From Kiritimatiellia bacterium (GTDB lineage Bacteria > Verrucomicrobiota > Kiritimatiellia > RFP12 > UBA1067): a stretch of DNA of 34,105 nucleotides. The stretch lies in NCBI GenBank assembly GCA_017450695.1, contig JAFSTA010000284.1, forward strand, positions 1 through 34,105. Direction: 5' to 3'. Under the pieces are notes generated by a model. It saw only the letters and a list, made by a program, of their open reading frames with translations. It ran no database searches and had not been told where the DNA came from. Made by a program: the position numbers and the translations under genes. Shown one piece after another: positions 30,656 to 34,105 of this stretch; the first letter of the stretch is position 1; every line of letters begins with the position of its first letter.

Positions 30656-32170
30656 TTACTTTCCCGTTAGGTTCGCACGGCCGTTTCCCCATCCGGTTAG
30701 GTTGTAGGAGAGGGAAAGGTTGCCGTCGTTCGCGAACTGGAAGGTTGCGTCGAGGCGGAAGAAACCGTCGTTCAGGTATGTCCGCACACGGAAGGTGTCG
30801 GGCGCAGTCCATGCGCCGGAGGAGGCGACGGACTGTTCGCCGATGATGCCGCCCAACCCCTCGTAGGTTTTGTTTTCCAGCTTCACTTTTCCTTCGCGCC
30901 ATTCTCCGAAGCCGATGGGGAAATGTTGTTCGCCGGTGTCCCCGGTGGTGATCATCTCCCAGCCGTTATCCCGCTTCTCCAAACGGACGCTCGTGAAATG
31001 GAAGCGCGGCTGGTTTCCCTCCAGCGCGTACGTGCGCCCGAAGATCGTTTCGGTTCCTTCCTTTTTCCCGTCGATGGTTTTCAGCGAGAGCGCCGCGCAA
31101 CGCGCCTCCAGCGCGTTTGCCGCATCGGGATTGGCGGGCAGGGGCGCGTTTTGGAAGGCGGGCAAGAGGTGTTTCCAGATCAGGTCGAGTTCTTTCTGCA
31201 TCGGGCCAAGTCCGGCGTGGACCGACAGGACGGCGTCCTGGTCGGGCATCACGACCGTCAGCTGTCCGCTCGCCCCGTCGGCGCGGAAGCAGTTGAAGCG
31301 GCAGCGCCAGAACTGGAAGCCGTATCCCTGCGACCAGTCGCTCTGGTCGATCTGTTTCACGCCGATTTTGCCGCCGTTGTAGGTTTGGCGAGAGGTCGCC
31401 AGCCGCACCCATTCCCGCGAGAGGATGCGGTTCCCGTCCCACATTCCTTCCTGCAGGTAGAGTTGGCCGAAACGGGCCAGCTCGCGAGTCGTCATGCTCA
31501 TGCCCCAGCCGCCGCAGGCGATTCCCGTCGGGCTGCAGTTCGACCACGCCTTCGTGATGCCGATCGGATCGAAAAGCCGTTCCTTCAAGAAATCCATCAG
31601 CTTCTTCCCGCTCCGCTTCTCGACGATTGCGGCGAGAACGTGCGTGGCGCAGGAGTCGTACCGGAAACGGGTTCCCGGACGGTCTTCCACCGGGTTCGCC
31701 AGAAAGAGGTTGACCCAATCCCCGCCGATGTCCTTCCGCTCCGCGTCGGTGTACGGCATTCCGGTGTTCATCGTCAGGAGATCGCGGACGCGAAGGCGTT
31801 TGAGGTTGTCCGGCTGATTTTCCGGAAGCTGGTCGGGGAAGATATCGACCAGGCATTCATCGAGGTCCAGTTTCCCGTCGTCGATCAAAAAGCCGATCGC
31901 GGTGGAGGTGAAACTTTTGGAATGGGAATAGAGGATGTGCGTCCGTTCGGCGGAGAAAGGCTTCCACCACCCCTCCGCGACCGTCTTGCCGTGGCGGAGG
32001 AGCACGAAGCTGTGGACGGCATCCAGCTCCCGTTCACAGGCGGTGATCCACGCGTCGATCGCGGATGAGGAAATCCCCTCCGCCTCCGGCGTCGATTTTT
32101 CCAACAGCGCAAAACCGTTGCCGGCCAAGACCAGCGCAACGGCGCACGACAACATACCCAATCTCTTCAT
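30656..32170 (-). CDS. Secreted serine beta-lactamase-family hydrolase
   Basis: 504 residues starting at ATG 32170 (AAAGGAG 9 nt upstream). Residues 1-21 are a signal peptide. The class C beta-lactamase/esterase fold covers ~28-350: nucleophile S82 in SHSK (SxxK), Tyr171 in YDS (YxN-like), and ADGASGQ near 295-301 in place of KTG/HxG. The ~150-residue C-terminal extension is a lipocalin-like beta domain of the type found in D-aminopeptidase or esterase relatives. It is not an antibiotic-resistance enzyme on this evidence; likely substrates are peptides or esters in the periplasm. Transcribed after the mini-hairpin array at 32199-32400, which probably lies in its leader or in a shared transcript with the upstream GDYXXLXY-type gene. 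Confidence 0.9.
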   Translation of the reverse strand: MKRLGMLSCAVALVLAGNGFALLEKSTPEAEGISSSAIDAWITACERELDAVHSFVLLRHGKTVAEGWWKPFSAERTHILYSHSKSFTSTAIGFLIDDGKLDLDECLVDIFPDQLPENQPDNLKRLRVRDLLTMNTGMPYTDAERKDIGGDWVNLFLANPVEDRPGTRFRYDSCATHVLAAIVEKRSGKKLMDFLKERLFDPIGITKAWSNCSPTGIACGGWGMSMTTRELARFGQLYLQEGMWDGNRILSREWVRLATSRQTYNGGKIGVKQIDQSDWSQGYGFQFWRCRFNCFRADGASGQLTVVMPDQDAVLSVHAGLGPMQKELDLIWKHLLPAFQNAPLPANPDAANALEARCAALSLKTIDGKKEGTETIFGRTYALEGNQPRFHFTSVRLEKRDNGWEMITTGDTGEQHFPIGFGEWREGKVKLENKTYEGLGGIIGEQSVASSGAWTAPDTFRVRTYLNDGFFRLDATFQFANDGNLSLSYNLTGWGNGRANLTGK

Positions 32171-32198: not shown

Positions 32199-32400
32199 GT
32201 TCCTTCGGAACTAAGTGCCCTTCGGGCTAAGTGTCCTTCAGACTAAGTGCCACATACGTGGCTAAGTGTTCCTTCGGAACTAAGTGCCCTTCGGGCTAAG
32301 TAACTTAGTGGCGAAGCCACACTTAGGGCGTAAGCCCACTTAGGACGAAGTCCACTTATCCACTTAGGACAAAGTCCACTTACTCCACTTATTCACTTAG
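32199..32400. repeat. Symmetrical CTAAGTG / mini-hairpin array
   Basis: Five copies of CTAAGTG (starting 32211, 32227, 32243, 32262, 32280) and a sixth half at 32296 run forward, and CACTTAG or one-base variants (32320, 32337, 32353, 32361, 32377, 32386, 32394) run backward, around the palindrome CTAAGTAACTTAG centred on 32302. Between the heptamers lie tiny hairpins: GTTCC-TTC-GGAAC, GCCC-TTC-GGGC, GTCC-TTC-AGAC, GCCAC-ATAC-GTGGC, again GTTCC and GCCC types, then GTGGC-GAA-GCCAC, GGGC-GTAA-GCCC, GGAC-GAA-GTCC and GGAC-AAA-GTCC. The hairpin flanks share bases with the heptamers. The last heptamer overlaps the final Lys and stop codons of the upstream minus-strand gene. The forward and backward halves can pair, producing a branched cruciform. 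No open reading frame inside. Confidence 0.9.
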
Positions 32401-33034
32401 CCTCGCCGCCCTTCATCGCCCTCTCGATGACGGAGGTGCCGCCGATTTCGATGTCGGTGATTACGATCTCGCCGTCTTTCACACGATAGACGGCGACCGC
32501 CCCCTTTCCCTTCGCCGAAGTCGCCTCGCGGAGCACCTCTTCCGCCTTCGGCGCGAGACGTTCGTTCACGAAGAGCTGGTCGGGCATCGGCACGGTAGCC
32601 ACGAGAGGCGAAGCTTCACGGCGTTTCCGGAATGCCTCATACGGTTCGTCTTTTCCCTGTGCAGACCAGCTCAACAAATGGTTAAGCGTGGTTCGATCCC
32701 GTTTCACCCAAAGACCGCCGTCTTGCTGGGGCTTGTCGGCAACCGTCGTGACGCGCCAAAGTCCGTTTGTCCCCGGTTCCAGTTTCGCGTAGAGCCTGAA
32801 TCTGGCATACGCTTTCGTGTTGTTGATGAGGATGTTCGTGCAGCTCTCGCGCACGGTCGTGCGGAGATAGCGTCCGCGAAGCGGGTCGTAAGGATCGTAT
32901 GCCTCGCAACGGAAACGCACTTCGGTACCGTGGCGAACGATTTGCTCGTAACGCCAGATGAGCCATCCTATGCAGACGCTTTGTACGGCGAGCGCCGCCA
33001 CCGCCAGAATCGCCTTCTTTGTATTTGACATCAT
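32393..33034 (-). CDS. GDYXXLXY-type membrane-anchored protein
   Basis: 213 residues from ATG 33034 (GGAAGGA upstream; a second ATG follows at 33031). A single membrane segment at ~8-28 anchors an extracytoplasmic domain. The stretch AYDPYDPLRGRYL at ~50 corresponds to the family-defining DPRDPLRGDYxxLxY motif, but Asp is replaced by Arg and the end reads LRTTV, so this is a divergent member. The family usually occurs beside DUF2157/DUF4401 membrane proteins, as it does here: the preceding gene ends 2 nt upstream. The function is unknown; a membrane complex is the likely context. The last codons (GCT AAG TGA) are built from one unit of the CTAAGTG array. Confidence 0.85.
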   Translation of the reverse strand: MMSNTKKAILAVAALAVQSVCIGWLIWRYEQIVRHGTEVRFRCEAYDPYDPLRGRYLRTTVRESCTNILINNTKAYARFRLYAKLEPGTNGLWRVTTVADKPQQDGGLWVKRDRTTLNHLLSWSAQGKDEPYEAFRKRREASPLVATVPMPDQLFVNERLAPKAEEVLREATSAKGKGAVAVYRVKDGEIVITDIEIGGTSVIERAMKGGEAK

Positions 33035-33036
33035 GA

Positions 33037-34105
33037 TTAGTCCTTCCTTTTCCGCAGACGGATGAGAACCATGTTGAGCGCTGTGAGCGCCAATCCAGCC
33101 ACGATCAGCACAACCCCCTTGATCGTGAATGAAATGTGGCTCGTGAAGAATTTCGCCAACACCAGCCAGAGAAGCGTGACCGCGCCGACGTTCGTGAGGA
33201 AGAGTCGCATTTTGCGGATGCCGAGTGTGATGATGGCGACCGCCAGCGCCAGCGCGAGGAGATACATCTCGCCCCCATCCATGAACGGTGTCGGGAATGC
33301 GGCGCCCGCGGCAACAATGGCACCGACCGTTCCCCAGACGGGGAGCGCGAAAATCCGTCCCGTCAGCGCGACCAATCCCGCACAAGCCCAGTAAGTACAG
33401 ATGGTGGCTGACACATAACGGTAGAACCGAAAATCCAGGGTGGTTGTCAGGAGGATGGGCAGACCGACAGAGTAGATAAGGCCAGTTGCCGCTTGCGCCG
33501 AATACAGTGCGGCTTTCGGCGGACGACTGCGTAAAAACGCGATGTAGAAGGGAAGGGAAAGCAACATCAGAACAACGGACTTCACGGCAAGCGAAGATCC
33601 CCCTATTCCAATGTAATCGACTTTCATCAGCCCCCAGACGATCGCAAAGATCGGCCAGAGCGCGGTCGGCACCACGGCCCGTGTCGTCCAGAGTACCGGC
33701 AGCATCAGCAACGCGACCAGGAGGATCAATCCCGGCACGTTCCCGCCGACCTGGTAGGTCTGCGCGACCAGACATGTCGCCGCCCCGACCGAGACGCACC
33801 AGAGGATACCGAGCGGTTCCCAGAACGCGCGCGACATCCAGCCCTTGACATGGGCGAAGATCGCAAGACAACCGCAGATGGCGACGGGCGCGATCGCGAT
33901 TGCCGCGCGGGCCGGGCGACCGAATTCGCTCCAGTTCGCCGCGAAAAGCGCGATGATACCCAGTCCGATCATCAGCGCACCGAATCCGCCGGCGATAATC
34001 GCACCCCACGAAAGGCGTCCTGCGCCGAGTTCGGCAGAAAGCGCCTTCCGTCTTTTCTTCAGTTCTGCGATTTGCCGATCGATCTCCTCGATCTTGCGCC
34101 TCGCC
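33037..34105 (-). CDS. DUF2157-type multipass membrane protein (partial, runs off right edge)
   Basis: The 3' part of a gene whose start lies beyond the window. The visible ~355 residues begin with a charged helical stretch (RRKIEEIDRQIAELKKRRK), likely coiled coil, followed by about ten hydrophobic segments from AIIAGGFGALMIGLG to the C-terminal NMVLIRLRKRKD. WSEFGRPARA after the second segment and the long membrane domain fit DUF2157. An apparent start at 33972 is internal: the open frame continues upstream through sensible DUF2157 sequence to the edge. Overlap-free coupling to the following GDYXXLXY-type gene (2-nt gap) supports one operon. Its biochemical role is unknown. Confidence 0.82.
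   Translation of the reverse strand, partial: ARRKIEEIDRQIAELKKRRKALSAELGAGRLSWGAIIAGGFGALMIGLGIIALFAANWSEFGRPARAAIAIAPVAICGCLAIFAHVKGWMSRAFWEPLGILWCVSVGAATCLVAQTYQVGGNVPGLILLVALLMLPVLWTTRAVVPTALWPIFAIVWGLMKVDYIGIGGSSLAVKSVVLMLLSLPFYIAFLRSRPPKAALYSAQAATGLIYSVGLPILLTTTLDFRFYRYVSATICTYWACAGLVALTGRIFALPVWGTVGAIVAAGAAFPTPFMDGGEMYLLALALAVAIITLGIRKMRLFLTNVGAVTLLWLVLAKFFTSHISFTIKGVVLIVAGLALTALNMVLIRLRKRKD

Follow-up and report, generated by a model that had tools for sequence, protein, structure and literature searches.

Which kind of element is the array of short hairpins that fills one intergenic gap of this Kiritimatiellia genome, and how did it come to lie there? The window (the whole 34,105-nt stretch of DNA that was analysed) contains nine exact copies of the heptamer CTAAGTG at 32211-32400, five on the + strand followed by four on the − strand, as compared to a mean of 1.3 and a maximum of 5 for the whole window after shuffling. 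The original prediction, made from the letters alone, described heptamers alternating with mini-hairpins in an orientation that flips at 32302. Both features are present: ten local hairpins lie along 32199-32377, the array folds as RNA far better than dinucleotide shuffles (z = −6.3 for the + strand and −4.6 for the − strand), and the inversion centre CTAAGTAACTTAG has its midpoint at 32302. The heptamer-plus-hairpin format holds, apart from a single imperfect hairpin and with the correction that the ends of the heptamer belong to hairpin pairs. Because the terminal C and G of the heptamer pair within the hairpins, the unit is better read as an unpaired 5-nt tag, TAAGT, and a hairpin with an outer G-C pair. 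Hairpins stand exactly 5 nt apart (TAAGT or ACTTA) in the left arm and more loosely at the centre and in the right arm, where certain spacers are shorter, just AA, GAG or GA. A long stem of CTAAGTG paired with CACTTAG had also been proposed. Its computed energy is indeed lower (−74.8 kcal/mol for + strand RNA with the long stem versus −53.3 kcal/mol with local hairpins only), but the heptamer pairs are near-invariant and thus give no comparative evidence for it. The features of the array and the flanking genes are collected in Table 1.

Table 1. Features of the hairpin array and its flanking genes, in window coordinates.
Feature	Position	Strand	Basis
Whole array, '>>>>>> centre <<<<', BIME-like inverted arm pair	32199..32400	.	
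Y-type arm, six hairpins, CTAAGTG strand	32199..32296	+	local fold; arm typing
Y-arm hairpin 1, GTTCC(TTC)	32199-32211	+	local fold
Y-arm hairpin 2, GCCC(TTC)	32217-32227	+	local fold
Y-arm hairpin 3, imperfect, GTCCTTCAGAC	32233-32243	+	local fold
Y-arm hairpin 4, GCCAC(ATAC)	32249-32262	+	local fold
Y-arm hairpin 5, GTTCC(TTC)	32268-32280	+	local fold
Y-arm hairpin 6, GCCC(TTC)	32286-32296	+	local fold
Inversion centre CTAAGTAACTTAG (CTAAGT-A-ACTTAG), midpoint 32302	32296..32308	.	sequence; homologous centres elsewhere, e.g. CTAAGTTGACTTAG
R-type arm, four hairpins	32308..32377	-	local fold
R-arm hairpin 1, loop GAA on +	32308-32320	-	local fold
R-arm hairpin 2, loop GTAA	32326-32337	-	local fold
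R-arm hairpin 3, loop GAA	32343-32353	-	local fold
R-arm hairpin 4, loop AAA	32367-32377	-	local fold
Tag copies without hairpins (TAAGTG, GAG / AA spacers)	32378..32400	-	
Serine beta-lactamase-family hydrolase gene (PF00144), start ~29 nt past the array	30656..32170	-	
GDYXXLXY-domain protein gene (PF14345), 3' end in the array, TGA stop from the last CTAAGTGA	32393..33034	-	
DUF2157 membrane protein gene, cut at the contig end	33037..34104	-	

The window genome (G000; 5.03 Mb, 287 contigs) contains many such arrays. A search for adjacent CTAAGTG pairs (CTAAGTGN{6,16}CTAAGTG) gave 95 matches, as compared to a single match when the pattern was reversed as a control. G000 has at least 46 arrays, all intergenic save for one that overlaps a weak gene call only, and the loci examined there hold 230 units. 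Array-pattern matches occur in 21 of the 162 genomes of the order, among them G001 (73), G036 (19), G074 (15) and G076 (24). Genus g1 has arrays of the hairpin type in G000 and G001, and genus g13 has them in G036, G074 and G076; the array-pattern search found none in G002 and G003, which belong to the same genus as the window. The window and all three of the hairpin-bearing genomes that were studied have TAAGT as their tag. The original prediction had named two outcomes that would refute it, absence of the pattern elsewhere and stems that do not covary in other copies, and neither was observed. A scan of contigs with a looser pattern returned, among the matches listed, mostly scattered singles resembling chance. 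Viral origin was considered and set aside when the strict pattern gave no match in viral contigs, as was a known RNA family, for no Rfam family reaches the gathering cut-off.

Other repeats were observed beside this family. Five genomes (G005, G023, G042, G046, G072) carry hairpin-free arrays of GACTAAG[TC]G with words of 4-6 nt between the copies (L269-L284 in G046, G005, G023 and G042); the array pattern occurs 96 times in G046 alone, where the arms are arranged '<< >>' around a partly conserved centre, the opposite of the window's '>> <<'. Tandem arrays of the heptamer GTGAATC occur in G043, G057, G051 and G022 (L225-L236, L286-L288), nearly pure in G043, G051 and G057 and with CCAG/CAAT-like spacers in G022. 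In G001 and G036 (L266 958-1354, L251 4491-4763), related hairpins are joined by different, AT-rich linkers (TTTAAATC, TTAAGTC) and are apparently a sister family. Another dispersed repeat, likewise intergenic and made up of ACGCAGAG/CGCAGAG-like words (L172 5156-5348, L178 5436-5607, L244 4252-4395, L176 2096-2201) has copies about 80% alike and lies a few hundred bases from certain arrays.

Across the family, the unit consists of the unpaired TAAGT tag and a hairpin of 4-6 bp (stems also given as 3-6 bp) with a loop of 3-4 nt. Fully paired units account for 161 of 230 in G000 and 37 of 44 in G036, where shuffled spacers give 4.3 and 0.45, respectively. Among 85 distinct 13-nt spacers, taken unselected from three groups, the three variable pairs are Watson-Crick in 219/255 cells versus 95 after shuffling (maximum 121), although the copies are kin by descent, so that neither these pairs nor the mismatches counted below are independent events. 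Each of the three variable positions exhibits all four pair types. A hand-typed alignment of 72 of the 85 13-mers gave a covariation score of 0.629 versus 0.160, and sliding the partners abolished the signal. Stems thus change and stay paired, as had been claimed. With the many dispersed copies, this agrees with the proposal that pairing is maintained by selection or by some form of copying.

DNA mini-hairpins that have a GNA or GNNA loop and two or more G-C pairs are exceptionally stable (PMC4686876). On the CACTTAG strand, 145 of the 161 paired G000 units (90%) have a GNA (100) or GNNA (45) loop, and the loop-closing pair is C-G in 160 of the 161. All 37 loops of the paired G036 units are GNA closed by C-G. 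The odd loop of the window, ATAC, corresponds to GTAT on the opposite strand, presumably a further class of stable DNA tetraloop. Imperfect pairs in G000 comprise 13 GT and 14 AC, and those in G001 10 and 9, with no wobble preference on either strand; selection on the RNA of one strand is therefore not favoured.

The order of hairpins around the centre, for example GGAC(TTC)GTCC, GGTGGC(TGGC)GCCACC, CTAAGTTGACTTAG, GCCGC(GCA)GCGGC, GTCCC(GCA)GGGAC, recurs at many G000 loci with unrelated flanks, which argues that blocks were copied between sites. The two arms carry different stem sets, one mainly of purine-led words and the other of pyrimidine-led words, a rule that G000 follows clearly and G001 and G036 less strictly; in the window the pyrimidine-type arm is on the left. 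Recurrent hairpin order together with unlike arms thus indicates a dispersed, copied element. After copying, arrays were lengthened by repetition of units (L173, L182, L184).

The gap orthologous to that of the window was found in G001 (contig C262, L263), where the locus is syntenic and the GDYXXLXY and DUF2157 proteins are 79% and the hydrolase 95% identical to those of the window. The gap measures about 115 nt in G001 versus 222 in the window and contains three degenerate hairpin units, unlike the window's in sequence, that begin directly after the stop codon. The two GDYXXLXY proteins end differently (MKGGEAK against KGDSDEE), each at the array border. A unit had been said to have invaded the end of the upstream gene; what stands of this is that the gene's TGA stop sits inside the terminal CTAAGTGA (32393-32400). 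Among further relatives searched for the same gene pair, the GDYXXLXY gene was found but not with the same neighbour, and no empty site was found. At 34087-34105 the window's contig stops a few codons into the DUF2157 gene. Directly before this gene, G001 carries both an array and a gene for a RAYT-like protein; the coincidence suggests that the repeat broke the assembly here.

Taken together, the array probably belongs, as a single copy, to a REP/BIME-type family of palindromic repeats, dispersed and non-autonomous, whose hairpins we infer to act as DNA and whose blocks would be copied by an HUH enzyme acting in trans. When one strand is single, as on the lagging strand, the units would fold into very stable DNA mini-hairpins. 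The TAAGT tag with the folded mini-hairpins would be recognised by an enzyme that cleaves and joins DNA, for which an HUH (Y1/RAYT-type) transposase is the most plausible candidate. This enzyme would copy blocks to new intergenic sites, after which slippage or recombination could lengthen or shorten the arrays. Unlike arms may prevent the halves of an array from pairing into a single long hairpin that could be cleared, a role proposed for REP heterodimers, and any effects on the 3' ends of mRNAs would be incidental to where the arrays lie. It is mobility by an HUH enzyme, in particular, that we infer here.

A sharper form of this reading, which we regard as possible yet tentative, is that of a RAYT-mobilised REP family (a REPtron) whose enzyme is the RAYT-like protein of G001 C262. 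This 335-aa protein matches Pfam Y1_Tnp above the cut-off and NCBIfam REP_Tyr_transpos below it (E 3.6e-13), and its stop lies about 10 nt before another array (L347/L263). Its nearest relatives in other genomes, RAYT-like genes of 52-67% identity (L304-L311), mostly have hairpin repeats of their own on their flanks, which bear CAGGTTG/CCTGGTTG-like tags and are probably ordinary REP systems of the phylum. The window contig ends just where the counterpart of the G001 gene would sit. Against this, a REPtron has its RAYT between two inverted repeat copies; the array in G001 is on one side only, the critical spot in G000 falls at the contig end, and only 1 of the 30 Y1 loci examined in array-bearing genomes adjoins an array, with CTAAGTG not found near the other 29; the single adjacency could be chance. 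The G001 RAYT subfamily also occurs in the array-free genomes G002, G004, G019 and G127 and was not found in G000, G074 and G076 despite their arrays; G000 has only distant RAYT relatives (28% identity). A RAYT as a simple explanation was accordingly rejected: Y1_Tnp does not track the arrays, the array-rich G046 has no Y1 gene, and close RAYT homologues sit in array-free genomes. Rather less likely is a separate class of tagged single-stranded DNA mini-hairpin arrays (TAAGT, C(GNA)G/C(GNNA)G loops) served by a non-RAYT enzyme, in which the CTAAGTG tag, common to the hairpin-free arrays across the order, would be read by one conserved factor.

The position of the arrays bears on whether they act as RNA. 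Genes were called by a simple script of our own and exact gene starts are rough. In same-strand gaps, 13 of 16 arrays lie closer to the upstream stop codon, and several, including that of the window, begin at or within a stop codon. Such positions, along with covarying stems and folding far better than shuffles, would suit transcribed elements in which selected RNA hairpins stabilise or terminate 3' ends. We consider this improbable. Arrays lie between divergent genes in 11 of 38 cases in which both flanking genes were typed, versus 20 of 103 in the background, a share that is no smaller and argues against a general terminator role; mismatches exhibit no wobble excess on either strand, and no Rfam family reaches threshold. 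No T-run follows a GC-rich hairpin in the window region, and the terminator reading, one of several that the original prediction left open, is not supported.

A purely mutational origin, in which tandem slippage and template switching at quasi-palindromes make and repair hairpins with neither function nor transposase, is likewise unlikely. Perfect stems of many kinds, mismatches free of strand bias and the turnover of units at the orthologous gap fit it, but for the same block order to recur at dispersed loci, blocks must have been copied from site to site, and template switching alone would not be expected to restrict loops to GNA and GNNA. Least probable is an array bound by a nucleoid protein or regulator at CTAAGTG with hairpins as spacers: the hairpin-free arrays of other genera could be sites of the same protein, but the GNA-loop hairpin spacers of genera g1 and g13 are left unexplained, the spacing is irregular (15-22 nt), and the G000 neighbours are ordinary genes of many kinds with no apparent common function (GroEL-, UvrB- and threonyl-tRNA synthetase-like proteins and acyl carrier protein, named by sequence reading rather than family search).

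The REP/BIME-type reading extends such repeats, with a new tag, to a poorly studied phylum. The family also offers clean natural data on loop choice, and the identity of the loops (GNA/GNNA) suggests that single-stranded DNA is recognised in its folded form. With the same heptamer present with and without hairpins in related genera, one can ask whether an enzyme needs the tag or the hairpin.

A literature search on the heptamer itself returned only unrelated primer-type matches, and among the papers searched none joined Kiritimatiellota with REP. The original prediction could name no published element of this kind; REP/BIME elements, however, are built in just this way, as tagged palindromes that form inverted, heterodimeric groups adjoining stop codons (PMC3733652, PMC2817692). 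A RAYT-like gene bordering one G001 array, and related RAYTs in the order mostly with their own hairpin repeats, recall the RAYT, REPtron and REPIN systems (PMC2817692, PMC3116915), although no RAYT has TAAGT arrays on both sides and the distributions of RAYTs and arrays differ. The TAACTGA direct repeats of Beggiatoaceae (PMC4679880) are likewise TAA-containing heptamers, tandem and intergenic at many sites, but they have no hairpins between heptamers, lie mostly upstream of start codons and practically lack inverted arms. GNA/GNNA DNA mini-hairpins share the loop class and C-G closure, but those described are synthetic or isolated and form no repeat family. The likeness to REP/BIME goes further: a conserved unpaired tag at the hairpin foot, many intergenic copies (over 100 units per genome), complementary stem changes, inverted heterodimers and clusters with opposite units often of two kinds (here '>> <<' arms, mostly of opposite R/Y types in G000), and placement next to stop codons, within 20 bp of 3' ends for REPs, where the tag may supply the stop. 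A dedicated transposase is missing for CGTC REPs (PMC3733652), and likewise none has been identified for the TAAGT arrays. The differences are that the terminal unpaired tag is TAAGT rather than GTAG or CGTC, which places the family outside those described, that the stems, at 3-6 bp, do not reach the length usual in REPs, and that many different hairpins stand in tandem in each arm. By analogy of anatomy and placement, the array would thus work like a REP/BIME element, one with an unlisted tag and very small hairpins with special loops.
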